Shown here piece after piece: positions 15,939 through 49,038 of a DNA stretch of 64,000 nucleotides. Origin of the DNA: an uncultured bacterium (lineage in GTDB: Bacteria; Cyanobacteriota; Vampirovibrionia; Gastranaerophilales; Gastranaerophilaceae); the NCBI GenBank assembly GCA_902775025.1, contig CACYKP010000004.1:1-64000 (forward strand), in the 5' to 3' direction. The notes below the pieces were generated by a model. It worked only from the letters and a program-made list of their open reading frames with translations, was not told where the DNA came from and did not search any database. The position numbers and the translations under genes are program-made. Numbering within the stretch: the stretch's first letter is position 1; each line of letters opens with the position of its first letter.

Positions 15939-18900
15939 ATGGCAGATATAAATAATTTTTCTGATATAAATGAAAATTTTAATACCATTAAAACTTTGCT
16001 TAATTCAATAAGGGCGCAAGGCATCTTAAATACATCAGATGTTGATAAGATACTCGAAAATATTAACTCAAAACTAGAAAAGATTAATACCGGTGATGAT
16101 ATTGATTTAATCAAAGAATCCTTGTCAGAATTAAGGGGCAATCTTGAAGAAAGGCACGAGGTTTTAATATCTAAATTTGGCGCAATTGAAGCCCTTTTTT
16201 CCAACCTTCTTAAAAATAGCAATGACACAGTTAAATCTGAAGAATTGAAAGAATTATTTGATATTATTGCAACTAATTTATCTGTGTTCTCGAAAGAGGT
16301 TGTTTCCCAAAAAGAAACCTTGACTGATATTACTCTAAGACTTGATTCTATGCGTTCTGACGATTCCCAAAAGAAGGAGATTATTAAGAGTGTCCTAACC
16401 GTCAGAAATGATATCGAAAAACTGAATAATGGTTTTGATTCAATTGTAATAAGTCTTAACGAAAACTTTAAAACGGTATTAAAAACAATAGCTGAAGTTG
16501 ATCAGTCAGATGCTATAACAGGTTTTTCAAACCAATTTAATAACCTGATTGATACTTCAAATACTATTTTGTCTGCTATTCAGCTTATAGATAAGAAAAA
16601 TAATCAGTTTGAAAACTCATTTGAAGGACTTGCAACTCAAGATGATACTGCAAATATTCAGCGTAATTTAATAGAGTTATCGGCAAAAAGTCAGGAGATT
16701 TCTAATCTGGTCGATTCTCTAAACCAAAAATCATATAAAATGGACAGTCTTGCAGAAAAGATTGATGCATCCGTGAATATTGTTGCAGGATTAAAGGCAG
16801 AAATAGCAGAAAAAGATTCAGAAGTAAAAGATGCCGTTTTAGCTGAATTGGCAGGCTTGGAAAGAATATTAAAAGAAGCAACCTCTAATAAGGATTTTGA
16901 AGACTTCCGAAATTCTTTGGAAAATGTTTTAAACAATATATCTAATGGTTCAAAAGACTTAAAAGACTCTCTTGGCTCAGCTCTTAGGAATATCACAAAG
17001 CTTAATGACGATTTGAAAGCTATGGATATTAATGTAAATTTCCAAAGTGTATCATCAAACGTTGCGAGAATGGGTGAAGAGGTAAAAGAGAAGCTGGATT
17101 CGGAAATAGATAAATTATCTCAAATGTTAGATGTAAATATTACTAAAACATTAAATGAGATTGCATCAAATGCAGATGTTTTTAATGCAAGATTAAAAGA
17201 ATCTCATACAGCCCTTTCCGAACTTTGCGAAAAGAACTTTGCGGAAGTAACGGAAAGCATGACTTCGCTAAAAGATGTTGTTGCACAACTTGATGAAAAT
17301 AATGTTTCGGCTAATAATGCAATTTTTTCAAATATAACTGACAGGTTGGCAATCTTTGAAAACAGTTTAAAAACATCATTAGAAAAACAAGAGGACTTTG
17401 TTTCTTCTTCATCCTCAGGTGTTTTTGAACAGATTACTAACATGAAAAATATTACAGAGGGTATAGAATATAAACTCGATTCCTCAGCAATAGAATTAGG
17501 TAGTGCAAAAAGAGAATTTTCCGGTTTAAAAGAATCTGTAGATGCAATGTTAGCACTTGATTTTGTTAATGTAATAAAAGATATTAAAGTAGATTTATAT
17601 GCTGTAAAACAGGATTTAAACGATGCTATTGAGTCTTCTTCGGGAGAACTTGCAGAAAAATATACTAATGACTTATTTGGTAAATATGAGTTGTTAGTAA
17701 GCAAACTTGACAGTGTAGAAGATGAAATGAAGTATGCCCAAACAGATGTTCTAAATGATTTGCATACAACTTTATCAAATATATCTTCATCTATTGTTGA
17801 TATTTTATCTTATGTCAGTACAGCAAAAGAAGCTGATAATGCCGAATTGGAAGCAAAACTTCTCAACATAGCAAAAACAGTCAAAGACAGCAACTTAAAT
17901 TATGTAGAAAATGTAAGAGACATTGTAGATGTTATAAGAACTCAAGTTGAGGCAAGTTTAAAACAAATCAGCGAAGAGTCTGATGTGAGATTTGGGAAAA
18001 TAACATCTGCAATTGCGGAAAGTAATAATTCAATAAAAAATGATATAAAAACTTCATATAATAAAATTTTGGAAGTTCAAGAAAATATCGGCTCAATAAA
18101 TGAAATTTTAAATATAAAAAATGAAAATCTTTCTACTAATATTGAAGATATTTTATCATCTGCTGAAAGTTTAAAAGGCGAATTCGATTCTAAAATGAAC
18201 GCTTTAAAGAGCTCTTTACTTGGTATTGTTACTGAATTTAAGAATGATTTGTCTTGTGAAACAACAGATAAAATAAGTGAAGTTAAATTTAATTCGGAAA
18301 CGCTTCATTCCAGAGCTGTTCAACAATCGGTGGATTTAAAAAACGAGTTAAAATCTGAAATTGATGGCATAATAGAATCTTTAAGAAAAAATATTGCAGC
18401 TTTAAGCGAGCATGTTGCAAGTACGACATTGCAAATAGAAGGTGCTAATAAAGAGATTGTAGATTATATAAAAAATGATTTTACTCAAGATGTCAACAAT
18501 TCTGTTGATTCAATTAAGACAAATACCGCAGATATTCTTAATGAGATTGATACAAAGGTTTATGATGTAGTAAACAGTTTCAGTTCATTGGAAACATCCG
18601 TAAGTAATTTATCTTCTGATACAACGACTGCTTTATCAAACACATTAGGTAAAATATTAGACAATTTTGTTTCTCTCAGAAATTTGGTGACTAATATAGA
18701 TGAACAAAATACTGAAAGATTATATAAAAATGCAGAGATTCTCAAAGGCGAATATATTCAAATGCGGGACAAATTTGATAATTTGAGTTCATCAGTAGAC
18801 AGGCATCTTGATAATCAGGTAACGGTAATAGATTCTAATTATGCAGCTTTTGAAAATTTAATCAATTCTCTTGATAATTCAACTAAAGAGAATTTTATAT

Positions 18901-21900
18901 CTGCCGTAAGAGAATTAAAAGAAGATTTTGGGCTGCTAAAGAAACAATTGACTGAGTTGGATTCAGCCGTAGATCAGGATTTAGCACATCAAATATCAAT
19001 TATAGAAGGCAGTTTTGAGTCAATAAACCTTATGATGGTAGACGTTATGAATCAGGCAACCGATTCATTAGGTGAAAAAATAAAGAAGGAATTGAACGGT
19101 GCTGCTTCAATAATGAATGAAACGTTAGCGGTTGAACTAGAAAAATATAAATCACAAATAGAAGATTTATTTGATGATTTTAAAGATAAATCAAATGAAC
19201 AAGGCGATTTTATTAAAGGGTGTGCTATAGAATTGAACAATGTTTTGGGAACGACTCTTGCGCAACAAAATAGAGATGCATCTTTACAATTAGAGGAAGT
19301 AGGAACAAGATTAAAAGAAATTTTGGATAGTAATATAGAAGTTACATCTGCTGACTATGGTGATTTGAAAGCTAAGCTGGTTGAATTTTTAGATAAAGTC
19401 GAAAAACATAATATTGTACTGGTTGACAATATGCGTACTCAAATAGATGATATAACAAAATTTTTAGATTCTAATTTAGAAATTCAATCGCAAGAAGTAA
19501 ATTCATGTTTTGAAGAAATATCATCAGGTATTCAAAAGATAATGTCAACAGTTCGTGAAGTAAATAATGAGCTTGGACCGCAAATATCTGCTGTACAAAC
19601 TGCTGCTGATGAATTAAAGGCTTCTGTCGATGGTGAAAGCTCCAATATAATCAGTACTCTTGACACTGCAGTAAAAGCTGCTGCAGAAGGTTCAAATCAA
19701 TTAATAACTGCGAAAATGGATAATGTAAGAGAGCTTTTAGAAACTGCATCAAACGCTACTCAAATAAGAATTGGTACAAAAGTTAACGAAATTTTAAATG
19801 AGTTAGACGGAATAAAAAATTCTTATGATGAACAGAAAACATACATAAATCAAATTCTTGATAATGAGTTGAAGCCTGAGCTTATGACATTGGGTGATAA
19901 AATTAATAATATATTAGAAGAAAATTCCATAAAATACGCAACAAAACTTGATGCAACAAGTGCAAAGCTTTCAGATGATTTATCATCAGGTATAAGCAAC
20001 TTTATATTATCAATTGCAAATTTAAACGACAGATTGGATAAAGATGAACTTGCAAGAATGAATGTTTATCAAACTCAAATAGATGAGTTGAATACAACAT
20101 TTAATGAATTGACAGATGAGGCGAAAGAAAGTATCAAAGCTCAGCTTCTGACTATTTCAGATACTTTGATTCAATCAAATAATGAAAAATATGATGAAGC
20201 AGCTCAATCACTTGAAAATTATGTACAAAAAATCGGAGAACAGATAGATAGTGTAAAACAAAATTCATTATTATGTAAAGATTTAATTGGCGGGTTGTTG
20301 CAAGAACATCTTAATATTATATCAAAGGATATAGAAAAAGAAACTGATGTTATAGTAAGTGATATACTTGAGCAATTCAGTATTTTAAAAGATGTTCAAA
20401 AAGATGAGTTATCATCTCTTACAACTGCTATTGAAGACTCAGTTGCCGGATATGTAATTGATGCTGTTAATGATTTAAAATCATATATGGATGTTAAAAC
20501 CGATTCTTCCGTATTGAACGGAAAACTGGATACTTTAAGAATAGAGTTGGAAAAATCTGTAGATGAAACTACTGAAAATATAAATAAACTCCTGGAAGTT
20601 AGTGTATTTACAGATGCAATTACAGATTTGAAAGCAACAAATCAAGTGCTTGTTACTTCAATGACTGATAAATTAAATAGTCAAATTCAAACATTTATTA
20701 ATGAAAATGTTTCAAAAAATATAGAAGACAAAGTAAATTTGTTAGATAAGAAGTTTATAGAAACAGTCGTAGATAAGTATGAAGAGGTAAAACTTTTATC
20801 AAATGAACATGCTAAATCATTGCAGTCTGTTTCCGAGTCTATAGAAGAAGTAGCTGGAAAACTTAATGATACAAAAGTAGAGTTTAATTCCAACTTAAAA
20901 GTTTTGTTGGGTGGAATAAATCAGTCAGTTGATGAATTAAAGGCTGATTTTGCTGATTTGAAGGCTCAAATTTTAAATAAATCATTTGATGAGGCTTTTC
21001 ATGCATCTGTTCATAATCAGATATCAGGAATTGAAAAATTAATAAATGAGCAAATGGGCTATATAGAAGATATTAGTGAACTTTGCTGTTCGAATTTGCC
21101 GGAACTTTCAGAGATGAATACAATTGTAAAATTTGGTATTCAAAATTCACTCTCTGATTTAAGTACGAAAGTTGATGAGCAAAAAAACGATATAAGAAGT
21201 CAAATATCTGACTTGAACGGAAAACTGGAAGAGCAAAAAAGCGATATAAGAAGTCAAATATCTGATTTGAACGGAAAAATTGGCGGTCAAGAAATTAGTA
21301 TTTCTGATGAAATAAAAGAACTTAAGTCAGGAATTCATCATTCTGTATCTGATTTAACCGAAAAATTGCAAAGCCAGAATATAAACATAACATCAGAGAT
21401 AACAAAAGAATTAGATGAATTAAAGACAGATATTATTACTCAGTTTATTAATGTATTTAACCAAATCTCTTTTGTGGCTGAGCAAGACGAGATTTTGGAA
21501 TTTATACAAGAAAAGCATTCTGAATTAATTACAATTTTAAGTCATATAGTAACAACATCTGACGGAATAGAAACAGTAAAAGATAATGTTGCTGTGTTAG
21601 ATAATAAGTTTGATTCTTTAAAAGAGGATATTGACCTAATAAATGAAAAAATTACATCAATAATGTCATCAGAAGGTGATATAGATTATGTATACAGTCT
21701 GCAGGACTTGGAATCTGATATTGCGAATTTAAGACTTGTTCTTAATGATATGAAGGCTGATAATAAGTCCAAAGAGTTTGAAGAATTAATTAATTCAACA
21801 AATAATATTTACCAAATCGTTGAAACAATAAAAGCAGAAATTCCAAAGTTTGAAGCGGAAGAATTTAAGAAAGATTTTAATGACTTAGCAGAAGATATTG

Positions 21901-22625
21901 TAAGTATCAGTACTAGAACAAATAAATTACTTTTGACCTCAGACGAGTCATATAAGACTTTACAAGACAATCTTCAAGATTTCAGAATGGTAATAAATGA
22001 CTTGGATGAAAGAACAAGAAATTTTGTTCACGATTCAGGTATAGATAAGCTTGATAATAAATTAAGTTCAATTAATACAATGATTCAAAATGGGGCAAAA
22101 ACAAACCAAGTATTCAATCAAGTTTTTGAATATTTGGCTGAATGGGTTGATAAAGCCGGTGAACAAATTACGACAATTTCCGACAAGGTTGAAACATTAG
22201 ATGATATCGGACAAATAAAACTTATGTTGGAGGACTTAAGGGCTGACTCACAGGACAATACAGAAAGTCAAGAACTAATTGATGCTCTTACAAATGTATT
22301 TGATAAACAGGCAAAACGTATCGCATCATTAGAGGCAAAACTTGACAGAATAATTGTAGATTCTAAAATAAATAATAAGAAAAATACTATAGATATGAAG
22401 CCTTTAGAGGATACGTTAAACAGATTTTTGGTTACATTAGAAGATAGAATTTCTTCTCAACATGACAAAATCAATTCTTTGGAAACAAAACTGGAAGAAG
22501 TTGTATCTTTGGTAGATAATAAAGATACCGCACAACTTACAAAAAAAGTCGGCGGTATGGACAGGCAGCTTGCAAAATTAAACAAGAGTATCGAAAAAAT
22601 AGCATCAAATGTTGTTGAAAAGTAG
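15939..22625 (+). CDS. giant coiled-coil protein, 2228 residues
   Basis: The whole protein is predicted from reading to be alpha-helical, with heptad-like spacing of Leu/Ile/Val and many Lys, Glu, Asp, Asn and Ser. It has no signal peptide, no membrane segment and few Cys. Recurring phrases such as 'IxxxLxxKxDxLKxDL' and 'xISDLNGKLEEQ' run along its length, and an 18-residue unit is duplicated near residues 1747-1782. A cytoplasmic scaffold, filament or cell-shape role would fit such a rod, but nothing proves it, and no homologue is recognised. The start ATG follows ggag closely. The downstream oxidase gene overlaps its stop by 17 bases. Confidence 0.8.
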   Translation: MADINNFSDINENFNTIKTLLNSIRAQGILNTSDVDKILENINSKLEKINTGDDIDLIKESLSELRGNLEERHEVLISKFGAIEALFSNLLKNSNDTVKSEELKELFDIIATNLSVFSKEVVSQKETLTDITLRLDSMRSDDSQKKEIIKSVLTVRNDIEKLNNGFDSIVISLNENFKTVLKTIAEVDQSDAITGFSNQFNNLIDTSNTILSAIQLIDKKNNQFENSFEGLATQDDTANIQRNLIELSAKSQEISNLVDSLNQKSYKMDSLAEKIDASVNIVAGLKAEIAEKDSEVKDAVLAELAGLERILKEATSNKDFEDFRNSLENVLNNISNGSKDLKDSLGSALRNITKLNDDLKAMDINVNFQSVSSNVARMGEEVKEKLDSEIDKLSQMLDVNITKTLNEIASNADVFNARLKESHTALSELCEKNFAEVTESMTSLKDVVAQLDENNVSANNAIFSNITDRLAIFENSLKTSLEKQEDFVSSSSSGVFEQITNMKNITEGIEYKLDSSAIELGSAKREFSGLKESVDAMLALDFVNVIKDIKVDLYAVKQDLNDAIESSSGELAEKYTNDLFGKYELLVSKLDSVEDEMKYAQTDVLNDLHTTLSNISSSIVDILSYVSTAKEADNAELEAKLLNIAKTVKDSNLNYVENVRDIVDVIRTQVEASLKQISEESDVRFGKITSAIAESNNSIKNDIKTSYNKILEVQENIGSINEILNIKNENLSTNIEDILSSAESLKGEFDSKMNALKSSLLGIVTEFKNDLSCETTDKISEVKFNSETLHSRAVQQSVDLKNELKSEIDGIIESLRKNIAALSEHVASTTLQIEGANKEIVDYIKNDFTQDVNNSVDSIKTNTADILNEIDTKVYDVVNSFSSLETSVSNLSSDTTTALSNTLGKILDNFVSLRNLVTNIDEQNTERLYKNAEILKGEYIQMRDKFDNLSSSVDRHLDNQVTVIDSNYAAFENLINSLDNSTKENFISAVRELKEDFGLLKKQLTELDSAVDQDLAHQISIIEGSFESINLMMVDVMNQATDSLGEKIKKELNGAASIMNETLAVELEKYKSQIEDLFDDFKDKSNEQGDFIKGCAIELNNVLGTTLAQQNRDASLQLEEVGTRLKEILDSNIEVTSADYGDLKAKLVEFLDKVEKHNIVLVDNMRTQIDDITKFLDSNLEIQSQEVNSCFEEISSGIQKIMSTVREVNNELGPQISAVQTAADELKASVDGESSNIISTLDTAVKAAAEGSNQLITAKMDNVRELLETASNATQIRIGTKVNEILNELDGIKNSYDEQKTYINQILDNELKPELMTLGDKINNILEENSIKYATKLDATSAKLSDDLSSGISNFILSIANLNDRLDKDELARMNVYQTQIDELNTTFNELTDEAKESIKAQLLTISDTLIQSNNEKYDEAAQSLENYVQKIGEQIDSVKQNSLLCKDLIGGLLQEHLNIISKDIEKETDVIVSDILEQFSILKDVQKDELSSLTTAIEDSVAGYVIDAVNDLKSYMDVKTDSSVLNGKLDTLRIELEKSVDETTENINKLLEVSVFTDAITDLKATNQVLVTSMTDKLNSQIQTFINENVSKNIEDKVNLLDKKFIETVVDKYEEVKLLSNEHAKSLQSVSESIEEVAGKLNDTKVEFNSNLKVLLGGINQSVDELKADFADLKAQILNKSFDEAFHASVHNQISGIEKLINEQMGYIEDISELCCSNLPELSEMNTIVKFGIQNSLSDLSTKVDEQKNDIRSQISDLNGKLEEQKSDIRSQISDLNGKIGGQEISISDEIKELKSGIHHSVSDLTEKLQSQNINITSEITKELDELKTDIITQFINVFNQISFVAEQDEILEFIQEKHSELITILSHIVTTSDGIETVKDNVAVLDNKFDSLKEDIDLINEKITSIMSSEGDIDYVYSLQDLESDIANLRLVLNDMKADNKSKEFEELINSTNNIYQIVETIKAEIPKFEAEEFKKDFNDLAEDIVSISTRTNKLLLTSDESYKTLQDNLQDFRMVINDLDERTRNFVHDSGIDKLDNKLSSINTMIQNGAKTNQVFNQVFEYLAEWVDKAGEQITTISDKVETLDDIGQIKLMLEDLRADSQDNTESQELIDALTNVFDKQAKRIASLEAKLDRIIVDSKINNKKNTIDMKPLEDTLNRFLVTLEDRISSQHDKINSLETKLEEVVSLVDNKDTAQLTKKVGGMDRQLAKLNKSIEKIASNVVEK
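21177..21284 (+). repeat. 54-bp tandem duplication inside the coiled-coil gene
   Basis: Two consecutive 54-base units (21177-21230, 21231-21284) are nearly identical and encode 18-residue copies containing 'DIRSQISDLNGK'. The low divergence points to a recent in-frame duplication. Confidence 0.8.
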
Positions 22626-31094: not shown

Positions 31095-31793
31095 ATGCAA
31101 ATCAATGGTGGTGTCAGATTTTGTGAACACGGTATGAGGGCTTCAATAAGAGCCATGCACGTTCAAACGGAATTATTAGGAATGATTAATGAGAACGTAG
31201 CAGGGTTTGATAAAGTCGGATATCAGAGAAAAGAGGCAGTCGTTTCTTCTATGACGGAATATCTTGGAGTACACGGACTTTCGACAACAATTGATGATCA
31301 AGTCGGGCGTATTATGGTTTCAAATAATCCGCTTGATATTGCTATCGCGAATAAAGGATATTTTCAAATCCAAACTCCCAACGGTGTTAAACTTACTCGT
31401 GACGGAAGATTTAAACTTGATAAAGACGGGAATTTGTTATCCTTAGAAGATTTTCCTGTTTTGTCAGATGCGGGTGTTCCTATTAAACTGCCCGTAATTC
31501 CTGATAATATTGATAAGGTTGTAGTTGATTCAAAAGGAAAAGTCAGCGTATATGATAAATCAACAAATAAACTTTCAGAAGCAGGAATTTTGGGAGTTGT
31601 TGATGCTAACGGAATGGCTGTAATGAATCCCGACATTAAACAAGGGTATAACGAATATTCAAATGTTGCTTTACAAAACGAATTTTTAAGAATTAAACCT
31701 GTTGTTAACAATTTTGAAGCAAACAGACAAATATTCTTAATTGAAAGTAATAATTTACAAAAAGTAATCAGCCAATTAGGTTCGGTAAGCTAG
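31095..31793 (+). CDS. flgF: flagellar basal-body rod protein, FlgF-like
   Basis: The 232-residue protein of the FlgE/F/G family starts with the N-terminal rod helix ('GMRASIRAMHVQTELLGMINENVAGFDKVGYQRK', a diverged form of the usual N-x-AN-x-x-T-x-GY motif). It has 'NPLDIAIANKGYFQIQTPNGVKLTRDGRFKLDKDGNLLS', the hallmark of the family, and a C-terminal helical tail ('NNFEANRQIFLIESNNLQKVISQLGS'). It is shorter than typical FlgF/FlgG. It is the first gene of a four-gene rod operon. The FlgF assignment relative to FlgG is by order and similarity and could be swapped. Confidence 0.85.
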   Translation: MQINGGVRFCEHGMRASIRAMHVQTELLGMINENVAGFDKVGYQRKEAVVSSMTEYLGVHGLSTTIDDQVGRIMVSNNPLDIAIANKGYFQIQTPNGVKLTRDGRFKLDKDGNLLSLEDFPVLSDAGVPIKLPVIPDNIDKVVVDSKGKVSVYDKSTNKLSEAGILGVVDANGMAVMNPDIKQGYNEYSNVALQNEFLRIKPVVNNFEANRQIFLIESNNLQKVISQLGSVS

Positions 31794-31806
31794 GAGGTGA
31801 GTTGAT

Positions 31807-32523
31807 ATGGTAATGTACAATATGCAAGCGGTTACGCACAGATGTATAAATAACGCTACAATGCAATTTGATAAATTAGGATATATAGCAACAAACCTTG
31901 CTAACTATTCAACAGTTGGTTATAAAGGAGTTGCGTTCGAACAATTCCTTAGAGAAGACGGTTATGTTGATGGTGCAATAAGAAAAAATACTCTTCAAGG
32001 TTCAATCAGAGTAAGCAGCAATCCTTATGATATTGCAATCGATGGTGAAGGATATATTCCTGTTGTATCACAAGATGGTGAAGTTCAATATACCAGAGAC
32101 GGTTCACTAAAAATCGGTGCCGGCGGTTATCTTGTAACAGTAGATGATTGGATGGTAGGCGATGGTATAAAAATTCCGCCTAATTCATACAGAATTGAAA
32201 TTAAGCCGAACGGTGACGTAATGAACTATGATAAGGCAGGTTCTTTACCTGAAAAAATAGGAACAATTCCTGTTGTTCAATTTGATAATCCTGAGGCTTT
32301 AGAGCAGGGACATAATAACAAAGTTGTATTTAACAGTGAAACAGGCGAACCAAGACTTGTTAAAGATGATTTAATAAAACAAAATGCAGTTGAAGTTTCA
32401 AACGTTAATATTTACGATGAATTAAATACAATGATGAGACTGAATGCTTCAATGATAGCAAGTTTGAATCTTATGAAGGTCGCAAATGATATGTACACAA
32501 AAGGTATAAATCTTCAACAATAG
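31807..32523 (+). CDS. flgG: flagellar basal-body rod protein, FlgG-like
   Basis: The 238-residue FlgE/F/G-family protein has 'KLGYIATNLANYSTVGYKGVAFEQFL' (canonical N-terminal rod motif), 'NPYDIAIDGEGYIPVVSQDGEVQYTRDGSLKIGAGGYLVT' and the C-terminal 'VEVSNVNIYDELNTMMRLNASMIASLNLMKVANDMY'. It probably forms the distal rod. It starts 13 bases after flgF with a strong 'aggaggtgag' ribosome site. flgB follows after 14 bases. Confidence 0.87.
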   Translation: MVMYNMQAVTHRCINNATMQFDKLGYIATNLANYSTVGYKGVAFEQFLREDGYVDGAIRKNTLQGSIRVSSNPYDIAIDGEGYIPVVSQDGEVQYTRDGSLKIGAGGYLVTVDDWMVGDGIKIPPNSYRIEIKPNGDVMNYDKAGSLPEKIGTIPVVQFDNPEALEQGHNNKVVFNSETGEPRLVKDDLIKQNAVEVSNVNIYDELNTMMRLNASMIASLNLMKVANDMYTKGINLQQ

Positions 32524-32537
32524 GAAGGTGATATAAA

Positions 32538-32888
32538 ATGAGTTACACAGGATTAGATGCTTTAGGAAAAACAAGCTTGATGTTGGACTTAATCTCTCAA
32601 AGACAGAGAGCGTTAGGTTCAAATGTAGCAAATGTCGATACCCCTGGATATGTAAGACGTGATATTGATTTTTCCACGTATTTAGGTACGATGAACAGTC
32701 CGCTGGAAACTCAATTATCAGAAAAGCTGGGACCTTCTGCAATTATGGAAGACAGAACAAGAGGTGAGATTGATATAGCGGAAGAATTTGCTGAAATTCA
32801 AAAGAACTCGCTTATGTACACAATGGCAACAAGAAGAATGTCGAACATTATTACCCAGATGAAAACAGTTATAAATGTCGGTAAGTAG
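32538..32888 (+). CDS. flgB: flagellar basal-body rod protein FlgB
   Basis: The 116-residue protein has 'ISQRQRALGSNVANVDTPGYVRRDIDF', the rod-protein N-terminal motif, and a C-terminal helix ('EEFAEIQKNSLMYTMATRRMSNIITQMKTVINVG'), as in FlgB. It forms part of the proximal rod. The ribosome site is 'aggaaggtga'. A 144-base gap with a GTAG hairpin separates it from flgC. Confidence 0.92.
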   Translation: MSYTGLDALGKTSLMLDLISQRQRALGSNVANVDTPGYVRRDIDFSTYLGTMNSPLETQLSEKLGPSAIMEDRTRGEIDIAEEFAEIQKNSLMYTMATRRMSNIITQMKTVINVGK

Positions 32889-32978
32889 GGCAGGGGTAAA
32901 TATATTTGACTAAATTGCATTCTTCACATAACGAAAGAATATAGGTCTGGCTTTAACCCGAAAAAAAAATAAGTAATA

Positions 32979-32999
32979 GTAGGTTGGGTGAAACTCAAC
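32979..32999 (+). repeat. REP-like GTAG hairpin between flgB and flgC
   Basis: GTAG is followed by GTTGGGT, a GAA loop and ACTCAAC. All seven pairs form if one G-T wobble is allowed on this strand. It could affect the stability or expression of the flgC part of the operon mRNA. Confidence 0.5.
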
Positions 33000-33032
33000 A
33001 AAAACAAAAATATAACCGAAAGGAAGATAATT

Positions 33033-33476
33033 ATGAGTATAATGGAATCAATAAACATCGGTGCAAACGCTCTTAAGACACACGGCTTAAGATTGGATAT
33101 CCACGCAAAAAATATTGCTAACGTAGATACTCCTAATTACGTAAGAAAAATTCCTGTATTAAATGCAACAGAGGATATATCTTTTCAGGGTGTCATGAAC
33201 GCTATGAAGAATGATGTATTCGGAACCGGAACTCTTCCTTATCTTCAAGGCGGGGTTGTGTTTAACGGTTGTGTTGAGGATCCTACCGTTGGTGAAAGAA
33301 TTTATGCTCCGGGGCATCCTGATGCTGATGCAAACGGTTATATTCGTTCTTCAAACGTTAATGCAATGGTAGATATGGCAGATGCAATAATGGCACAAAG
33401 AGCTTATGAAGCTAACCTTGCACTTGTTAACATTTCTCGCTCAATGGCAGCAAAAGCAGTAGAAATCGGACGTTAA
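33033..33476 (+). CDS. flgC: flagellar basal-body rod protein FlgC
   Basis: The 147-residue protein has the N-terminal 'GLRLDIHAKNIANVDTPNYVRKIP'. The C-terminal 'GYIRSSNVNAMVDMADAIMAQRAYEANLALVNISRSMAAKAVEIGR' contains the V-N-x-x-x-E/D-M-x-x-x-I-x-A-x-R-x-Y-E-A-N pattern of FlgC. An upstream in-frame ATG at 32988 lies in the GTAG hairpin. The ATG at 33033 has a good ribosome site (aaaggaag) and is chosen. It is the last gene of the rod operon; fliE is not in the window. It overlaps the convergent AlkD-like gene by 4 bases. Confidence 0.93.
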   Translation: MSIMESINIGANALKTHGLRLDIHAKNIANVDTPNYVRKIPVLNATEDISFQGVMNAMKNDVFGTGTLPYLQGGVVFNGCVEDPTVGERIYAPGHPDADANGYIRSSNVNAMVDMADAIMAQRAYEANLALVNISRSMAAKAVEIGR

Positions 33477-46442: not shown

Positions 46443-46790
46443 ATTACTCTCCTATAACAATACTCGAATATTATAACATAAAATTTTACTTGTTATAAAT
46501 ATAGCAAAATGTGGAATAGATAAATAGTTGTGATATAATCAGTAAAGGAATACTTGATGATATCGTTGAATAAGAAGGACAAACTGTTTAGAGCAGATAT
46601 GACTATCACAAACTCGCTTCCCTATTGTATTTGCGGGGGGTAGCTTATAACGCCCTTCTTTTATTGCTTTTCAACGATTTTTACAAAAAATATATTTGTC
46701 TTATTCAACGAAATTCAACCAAAATCCGCCCCTTAAGTAAGGAGCGAAGTCCGGTATTCAGGGGCGGACAGTTACCCCACGATTACGGAG
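46443..46790. promoter_or_regulatory. manC-flagellin intergenic region with inverted repeat and leader hairpin
   Basis: An extended -10 (TGATATAAT, 46531-46539) points toward the flagellin gene. A perfect 12-base inverted pair, TCGTTGAATAAG (46563-46574) and its complement (46700-46711), brackets 125 bases. A perfect 9-bp hairpin stem, TCCGCCCCT (46725-46733) with AGGGGCGGA (46760-46768), lies just before the ribosome site. No clear sigma-28 box is seen. If transcription starts after 46539 the leader is about 250 bases and structured. Confidence 0.5.
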
Positions 46791-46800
46791 GGAGGTGCGT

Positions 46801-49038
46801 ATGGCTCTCACCATAAACACCAACCTTTCATCGATGCTTGTGCAGATGAACCTTGCTCAATCGACGTTTGACCTAAATAAAGCGATTGAGCGTATGACAA
46901 CGGGATATAAGCTCAACCATGCAAGCGATAATGCCGCAAATTATTCTATTGCTCAGAATATGGTGAGCTGGCTCTCGAGTTATGATATAGCATCTGAGAA
47001 TATATCAATGGGTACAGACCTTGTTCAGACAGCATCGGATAGTATAGCTTTAATGCAGCAGCATGCGGAACGAATCCATAATCTAGTAACTCAGGCAATG
47101 AACGGAACTTATGGCGAAGATTCCCAAAAAGCAATCTCAAGTGAGATTAATGCACGAATTGCAGAGATTGACAGACTTTATCAAACGACCGAGTATAACG
47201 GCATCTCTCTTTTTAATAACCAAAAAATTGATATTTCTGAGGGGGCAATACAGCCGGGTGAGAGTGGTTTTATTGATGAGAACGCACTATCAGGGCCTGT
47301 TATGGTGAAAGAAACGGGATTTATACGTGCACTTTCGTCAGGAACGGTAGACGGAATAAAGGATAGTTATACCGATGCAGAGATTGCAGCTATGACCAAG
47401 GTTAAGAATTTAACAAAGTTTAGTTCAGGTCAAACCTATGCTATAACAGATGTTGAAGACCTCCAAAAACTTGCAGAACTTCATAATGCAGGAAAGAGTA
47501 TTGCCAATGTTACCTTTGTTCTCGGAGCTGACCTTGATCTTTCGGGTGTTGATTGGACTCCGATAGGTGACAACACCACCACCTCTAATGCAACCCGTTT
47601 TAGAGGTACATTTAACGGCAACGGACATACAATCTCTAATCTTACGGTTAATAATCCTGATGCTAAATGTCAGGGCTTGTTTGGGTATGTAAACGGCGGA
47701 AAAATCAGGAATCTAGGACTAGAAAATGCAGAGATATCAGGAGATATCTGCTGCGGGGCATTAGCGGGATACACGTCAAGTGCTAAAATTGATAATTGCT
47801 TTGCCGAATCTACAGTAAGCGGGAAATCTTATATCGGCGGTCTGATAGGAAGGGCAAGTAATACAAGCAGTATAAAAAACAGTTATTCATCTTCTAGTGT
47901 TAGTGGACAAGGTTCTAATGTTGGCGGGCTTGTCGGGCATTGTAATAGCAGCAGTGTAGAAAACAGTTATTCATCTTCTACGGTTAGTGGACTAGGTGCT
48001 GATGTTGGCGGACTTGTCGGGCAATGTGTTAGCAGCAGTGTAGAAAACAGTTATTCATTTTCTACGGTTAGTGGACTAGCTGCTAATGTTGGCGGGCTAG
48101 TCGGTCTAATATCTAGTTGTAGTGTATCCAATAGTTATTCAAATGCTAATGTTAATTCTGCAAGTATACATGTTGGAGTATTTGCAGGTGGAAGTATCGG
48201 TGATACTACAATAGATACGTGTTATTCTTCCGGAAGCGTATCAGGGAACTCTCTTGTCGGAGGTTTTATTGGTACTGCCGGTGCCGGTGATACTACAGCA
48301 GGTACGACAACAATAGCCAATTCTTCATCATATTGTACAAATATTTTTGGAGGACAATATGTAGGAAGTTTTATTGGCGGGTACAGAACTCAGTCATATT
48401 ATCCTGACGATTTTATTAGTGACCATGGTGACCAATTTATATATAACGGAGGTTTATCCTTAACAAATTGTGAATCTGCAACCCTTGATGATACCGATAT
48501 GATAGGTGGAGCATTTATAAAACAATTTACAGATGAAGGATATACAGACCCTGAAACGGGAGATTGGGTAAGTGCAAAATCACATGTCTATATAAAAGAT
48601 GAATCTTGTGACCTGACTCCTTTATTAGCTCAAATAGAAGGGCTTGATGTTGCATCCAACCCGACTGATTTGCAAGTCGGAATAAACGGATATGATTCAA
48701 GCAGAATAAGTTTTGATACAAACTTTGTGTATAACCTCTCATCAATCACCGTAGGAGGAAAAGTCAATAAAAATGCTTATACTATAATTGATAACTTTAT
48801 AAACAAGTTATCTGCAAAAGCAACCTCTCTCGGTGCAGTATCAAACAGGCTAGATAGTGCATTAGAAAGTACAACGGTTGCAATGCAGAACCTTACATCA
48901 TCACTGTCGACTATTCGTGATGCCGATGTTGCCAAAGAATCCTCTGCATACATAAAAGCTCAAATATTGCAGCAAGCATCCGCAACACTTCTCGCTACTG
49001 CAAACCAATCCCCAAGTGTAGCTCTACAGTTGTTGTAA
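46801..49038 (+). CDS. flagellin with GLUG-repeat beta-helix insertion
   Basis: About 745 residues. The N-terminal D0/D1 ('ALTINTNLSSMLVQMNLAQSTFDLNKAIERMTTGYKLNHASDNAANYSIAQNM') and C-terminal D1/D0 ('LSAKATSLGAVSNRLDSALESTTVAMQNLTSSLSTIRDADVAKESSAYIKAQILQQASATLLATANQ') are classic flagellin. Between them (about residues 200-550) sits a Ser/Gly-rich repeat region with units such as 'NVGGLVGHCNSSSVENSYSSSTVSG', which match the GLUG motif known from IgA-protease-type surface proteins. The insertion should project from the filament surface. The ATG at 46801, 5 bases after GGAGG, is preferred to GTG at 46795. It is not near the rod operon. Confidence 0.9.
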   Translation: MALTINTNLSSMLVQMNLAQSTFDLNKAIERMTTGYKLNHASDNAANYSIAQNMVSWLSSYDIASENISMGTDLVQTASDSIALMQQHAERIHNLVTQAMNGTYGEDSQKAISSEINARIAEIDRLYQTTEYNGISLFNNQKIDISEGAIQPGESGFIDENALSGPVMVKETGFIRALSSGTVDGIKDSYTDAEIAAMTKVKNLTKFSSGQTYAITDVEDLQKLAELHNAGKSIANVTFVLGADLDLSGVDWTPIGDNTTTSNATRFRGTFNGNGHTISNLTVNNPDAKCQGLFGYVNGGKIRNLGLENAEISGDICCGALAGYTSSAKIDNCFAESTVSGKSYIGGLIGRASNTSSIKNSYSSSSVSGQGSNVGGLVGHCNSSSVENSYSSSTVSGLGADVGGLVGQCVSSSVENSYSFSTVSGLAANVGGLVGLISSCSVSNSYSNANVNSASIHVGVFAGGSIGDTTIDTCYSSGSVSGNSLVGGFIGTAGAGDTTAGTTTIANSSSYCTNIFGGQYVGSFIGGYRTQSYYPDDFISDHGDQFIYNGGLSLTNCESATLDDTDMIGGAFIKQFTDEGYTDPETGDWVSAKSHVYIKDESCDLTPLLAQIEGLDVASNPTDLQVGINGYDSSRISFDTNFVYNLSSITVGGKVNKNAYTIIDNFINKLSAKATSLGAVSNRLDSALESTTVAMQNLTSSLSTIRDADVAKESSAYIKAQILQQASATLLATANQSPSVALQLL
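47872..48115 (+). repeat. 84-bp tandem repeats in the flagellin GLUG region
   Basis: The word AACAGTTATTCAT starts at 47878, 47962 and 48046, exactly 84 bases (28 codons) apart, and the flanking sequence is nearly identical between the last two units. In-frame gain or loss of units by recombination is possible. Confidence 0.8.

Follow-up and report, generated by a model that had tools for sequence, protein, structure and literature searches.

A flagellin gene of uncultured Gastranaerophilales with a predicted GLUG-repeat beta-solenoid insert, and the fast-evolving inserts of its relatives

A flagellin gene that carries a GLUG-repeat domain raises the question of what a filament built from its product would present to the outside, and of how such a gene evolves. 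The gene in question lies on the + strand at 46801..49038 of the window, by which we mean the whole stretch of 64,000 nucleotides analysed from an uncultured member of the Gastranaerophilaceae. It encodes 745 aa, and GGAGGGAGG, just 5' of the ATG at 46801, would make a good ribosome site. The flagellin N core (D0/D1, residues 5-141, 46813..47223, +) was recognised by Pfam PF00669 with E 4e-27 (95.4 bits against a cut-off of 26.6), and the C core (residues 661-745, 48781..49035, +) by PF00700 with E 6e-18 (65.5 bits against 23); the C-terminal QILQQA region is present and intact. GLUG (PF07581) was found in six stretches, with 46.6 bits for a cut-off of 20.5 (E 2.8e-12). This HMM search bears out an earlier note on the same DNA, which had proposed two intact flagellin ends around a GLUG-repeat insert. 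The note had also placed the gene away from the rod operon, and rightly so: rod/hook-type genes were found at 31095-33476, and the flagellin gene therefore stands apart from them, its neighbours being a ManC-type gene and MlaE/ABC/MlaD genes. Elsewhere in the window, the region 15939-22625 holds an ORF of 2228 aa with apolipoprotein-like repeats, probably a coiled coil.

The Gastranaerophilales are non-photosynthetic relatives of the cyanobacteria, and the window comes from a gut bacterium among them. Members of Candidatus Gastranaerophilales are flagellated (PMC3787301), and the genome from which the window is taken, a draft assembly of 88 contigs, encodes FliD and FlhA-family genes (flagellar cap, export). 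Its 11 Flagellin_N matches include only one with GLUG, the gene at 46801-49038, the other ten being free of it. Contigs C21, C15 and C24 of this genome (G000) hold two complete FlhA-family genes and a partial one, perhaps a sign of two flagellar systems.

The place of the insert could be read from the 'LQVG' hairpin of D1. In ordinary flagellins of the same genomes, this motif lies 14-26 residues past the N core and 49-143 before the C core, whereas in GLUG flagellins, for the copies in which it was matched, the gap from the N core is 305-559 residues and that to the C core 44-50. This shift in spacing places the insert in a D1 loop N-terminal to the hairpin, and shows the usual D2/D3 site to be nearly absent. 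In the window gene, the displaced hairpin follows the insert C-terminally, at residues 621-660 (48661..48780, +). The earlier claim that about 350 residues replace the variable middle must thus be amended: a GLUG insert is there, but it sits in another loop, that of D1, and consists of a solenoid of ~310 aa within an insert of ~480 aa. A paralog of 275 aa (L009) resembles the insert-free form. In the same genome, an 1801-aa giant flagellin (L044:2954-8356) carries a repetitive insert at the same D1-loop site. A D1 loop may be a second place in flagellin that naturally accepts inserted domains.

AlphaFold2, run on 36 aligned sequences, predicted a beta-solenoid for the insert, as the earlier note had anticipated in speaking of a beta-helix. 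Block pLDDT was mostly 82-97 over residues ~191-440; a gap in confidence follows at 440-465, and the rungs up to ~515 are less certain. A model of the insert folded alone, without alignment, was poor (pLDDT 55.6) and was not used. Taking the AlphaFold2 model, fold match and profile together, a cap and the solenoid with its GLUG rungs would occupy residues ~205-515 (47413..48345, +). The flanks are low-confidence linkers (~141-190 and ~520-620): on the N side, the linker and insert start span residues 142-204 (47224..47412, +), mostly of low pLDDT up to ~185, and on the C side residues 516-620 (48346..48660, +) are likewise of low pLDDT. Within the solenoid, three 84-bp tandem copies with 88% matches, corresponding to 28-aa rungs, occupy 47852..48104 (+) and show a rung duplication inside the gene.

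What is this solenoid related to? Searched by sequence against solved structures, the insert alone gave no match. Its best fold match, however, was 3n6z (Bacteroides ovatus BACOVA_03286, Z 30.5), and residues 773-1081 of the Streptococcus pneumoniae IgA1 protease (6xjb) matched with Z 28.0; a profile built from 20 inserts found both 3n6z (E 5e-29) and NTD2 of the IgA1 protease (E 8e-24). In that protease, the beta-helix NTD2 (782-1100) shifts to let IgA1 in and turns a conserved surface toward the Fab; the zinc site is not part of it but lies where MD and CTD meet (PMC9637739). Judged from profile and fold, the insert is homologous to the beta-helix domain NTD2 found in M26 IgA1 proteases, and the kinship with IgA proteases suspected in the earlier note is upheld.

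This kinship could suggest an enzymatic flagellin, whose insert would be an M26 peptidase or a beta-helix polysaccharide lyase acting on mucin or IgA. Pfam Peptidase_M26_N does touch the insert (residues 225-332, E 2e-5, under its cut-off), 17 flagellins with Peptidase_M26 domains have been listed and discussed as enzymatic (Eckhard et al. 2017, PMC5595980), and the alginate lyase 6kfn aligns to the insert model with Z 17.8. The lyase match has only 12% identity, however, and the part homologous to the protease is the non-catalytic NTD2, which does not hold the zinc site; no HExxH was found in the window gene or in 58 distinct full-length GLUG flagellin copies. The window flagellin is not a member of the M26 IgA1 protease family: MD/CTD and the zinc site were not found in it, and its C-terminus is a flagellin C core. 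We regard an enzymatic role as very improbable. By the same token, the listed flagellins with 'Peptidase_M26' domains may hold only the non-catalytic NTD2-type part.

The fusion is not confined to one genome. The survey of related flagellins that the earlier note had advised revealed GLUG flagellins in many species of the Gastranaerophilaceae, across several genera, and, in a class-wide sample, in a single genome from another family of the order; the 58 full-length copies have 3 to 13 rungs. A scan of named genomes with a single sequence gave no match. On a tree made from the cores only, the 33 GLUG rows require 2 label changes, which implies one or a few origins. The GLUG flagellins are an old and widespread lineage within the Gastranaerophilales. 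One might fear an assembly chimera or a decayed gene, the genome being a draft in 88 contigs. Such an accident is hardly credible, since the same architecture and insertion site recur in many independent assemblies from several genera, the cores of the relatives are under purifying selection, and the ribosome site is good. A GLUG flagellin was also met in an assembly labelled Clostridia (L177:3545-5296), which may be mislabelled. Two further families with GLUG-like repeats, with proteins starting 'MGMSASQARLL' or 'MTxVSINGxxSQDLYNIWQEKL', were seen at L043, L193-L195 and L200.

Giant FliD-like proteins with FliD_N and GLUG and/or M26_N, incomplete at the locus ends, were encountered in relatives at L163:590-8614 and L197:251-9601. 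The presence of GLUG/M26_N in such proteins lends some credit to the idea that the flagellin is an adhesin, secreted through flagellar export or located at the cap, and is not built into filaments. We consider this improbable, as both D0/D1 ends, QILQQA included, are intact and under strong constraint. The preferred reading is that of a filament subunit, and the D0/D1 ends, to go by their integrity, should polymerise normally.

Core and insert evolve at very different rates. Over eight pairs of relatives, dN/dS was 0.02-0.13 for the core and 0.26-0.70 for the insert; this fast divergence of the insert is compatible with relaxed constraint as well. In one genome (G154), paralogs had a core dS of about 0.05 and an insert dS of 0.6-0.9, which would fit either an exchange of inserts or a homogenisation of cores.

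A second trait of the relatives is the presence of long G or C runs at these genes. In genus g33, runs of 8-13 are located at the junction between core and insert, and in the same context the G11 copies (L155, L158) are in frame while the G12 copies (L150, L171) are out of frame. In other genera, promoter regions contain runs of 8-18, and these frequently adjoin TATAAT and follow a TGCAA-N4-TTGCA-like element; two promoters that are identical at 192 of 196 positions have G13 and G9, respectively. In G059, which belongs to the genus of the window, only three G runs of at least 9 exist in 1.8 Mb, and all three are upstream of GLUG flagellins. All genomes are draft assemblies, in which homopolymer lengths may be miscalled.

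For a count, runs of at least 8 were scored in the 250 bp preceding the gene and at the junction, loci from the poly-G search being left out and L056, L068 and L104 counted as GLUG flagellins. Such runs were present in 21 of 52 GLUG flagellins and in 0 of 36 ordinary ones (p 2e-6, an optimistic value since related sequences are not independent), after L171, L184, L253 and L257, N-only frames labelled ordinary, had been excluded manually as not being complete short flagellins. With these four counted as ordinary, the proportions become 25 of 57 and 4 of 40 (p 3e-4). More than half of the surveyed GLUG flagellins are without a run of at least 8. Read from sequence, the tracts in the relatives have the layout expected of slipped-strand phase variation, which falls short of demonstrating it. 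Poly-G/C runs were also seen at L252, L256 and L264, at genes that by inspection lie beside or resemble surface-polysaccharide acyltransferases.

No such tract lies within the reading frame of the window gene, and the longest G run upstream of it is a G6 at -166 (46635..46640, +); no G/C run of at least 8 was found in the whole 64-kb window. Relatives' GLUG flagellins have G7 (-169, -166) or C12 (-165) near this distance, and a relation of the G6 to these runs is suggestive only. With only a G6, switching is not claimed for the window gene. By sequence inspection, TATAAC (46646..46651, +), 5 nt past the G6, is a candidate -10 element; a search for a sigma-28-type promoter upstream of the genome's own flagellins yielded nothing convincing. 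The leader also contains a predicted stem-loop (46725..46768, +; z -2.4 for the 151-nt leader), of which no second copy was found in the genome.

If the solenoid served structure alone, as an outer domain that gives filaments stiffness or spacing and binds nothing, its variation would be drift. Flagellin outer regions do vary widely in general (PMC7018530), and the linkers of the insert are long and flexible. Selection for surface change fits better than drift, however, with poly-G tracts confined to GLUG flagellins, and with one genome's near-identical cores carrying very different inserts. A purely structural domain is in our opinion unlikely. With moderate confidence, we hold a diversifying, adhesive or antigenic flagellar coat, phase-variable in many relatives, to be the most likely explanation. 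The GLUG flagellin would then be a filament flagellin of flagellated Gastranaerophilales species, in which flexible linkers from the D1 loop would hold an NTD2/GLUG-type solenoid, without the protease part, outside the filament. Across the lineage the solenoid would grow, shrink and be swapped on cores that remain fixed; in many members elsewhere in the order, tracts at the promoter or junction are expected to switch the gene by slipped-strand mispairing, giving a changeable binding and antigenic coat in the gut. The earlier note had seen the surface as probably facing glycans or mucin; the analysis found no evidence for a ligand. More tentatively, one may imagine a Gastranaerophilales contingency system, in which sets of paralogous flagellins, many of them poly-G switched, carry interchangeable beta-helices of the IgA-protease type and change the face of the filament, possibly binding mucosal IgA or glycans or acting as decoys for them. 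If the coat reading holds, the flagella of an uncultured gut lineage bear a large and variable protein coat, maybe switched on and off, built on the scaffold with which IgA1 proteases contact IgA1. A search of a single library, which is weak evidence of novelty, found no literature linking the GLUG motif to flagellins and no description of phase variation in Melainabacteria.

Among known systems, bacterial flagellin FliC (PF00669/PF00700) shares with the window protein the D0/D1 ends, the C-terminal QILQQA region and the LQVG hairpin; the window protein differs in its large beta-solenoid before the hairpin and in the near absence of the D2/D3 site. With NTD2 of the M26 IgA1 metalloproteases (S. 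pneumoniae 6xjb, Gemella haemolysans 7uvk) it has the homologous beta-helix in common, but here the helix is carried by a flagellin, without MD/CTD and zinc site. B. ovatus BACOVA_03286 (3n6z), annotated 'putative IgA1 protease', is the best match of the insert in both fold and profile, and is not a flagellin. In Campylobacter and Neisseria, poly-G contingency loci likewise have long homopolymer runs at surface genes (PMC4965091, PMC5084427), whereas the tracts described here are at flagellin genes of uncultured Gastranaerophilales and are known from sequence. Flagellinolysin is also a flagellin with a foreign domain, one whose display on the filament has been demonstrated (Eckhard 2017, PMC5595980); its insert is a catalytic gluzincin peptidase, while that of the window flagellin is a non-catalytic solenoid.
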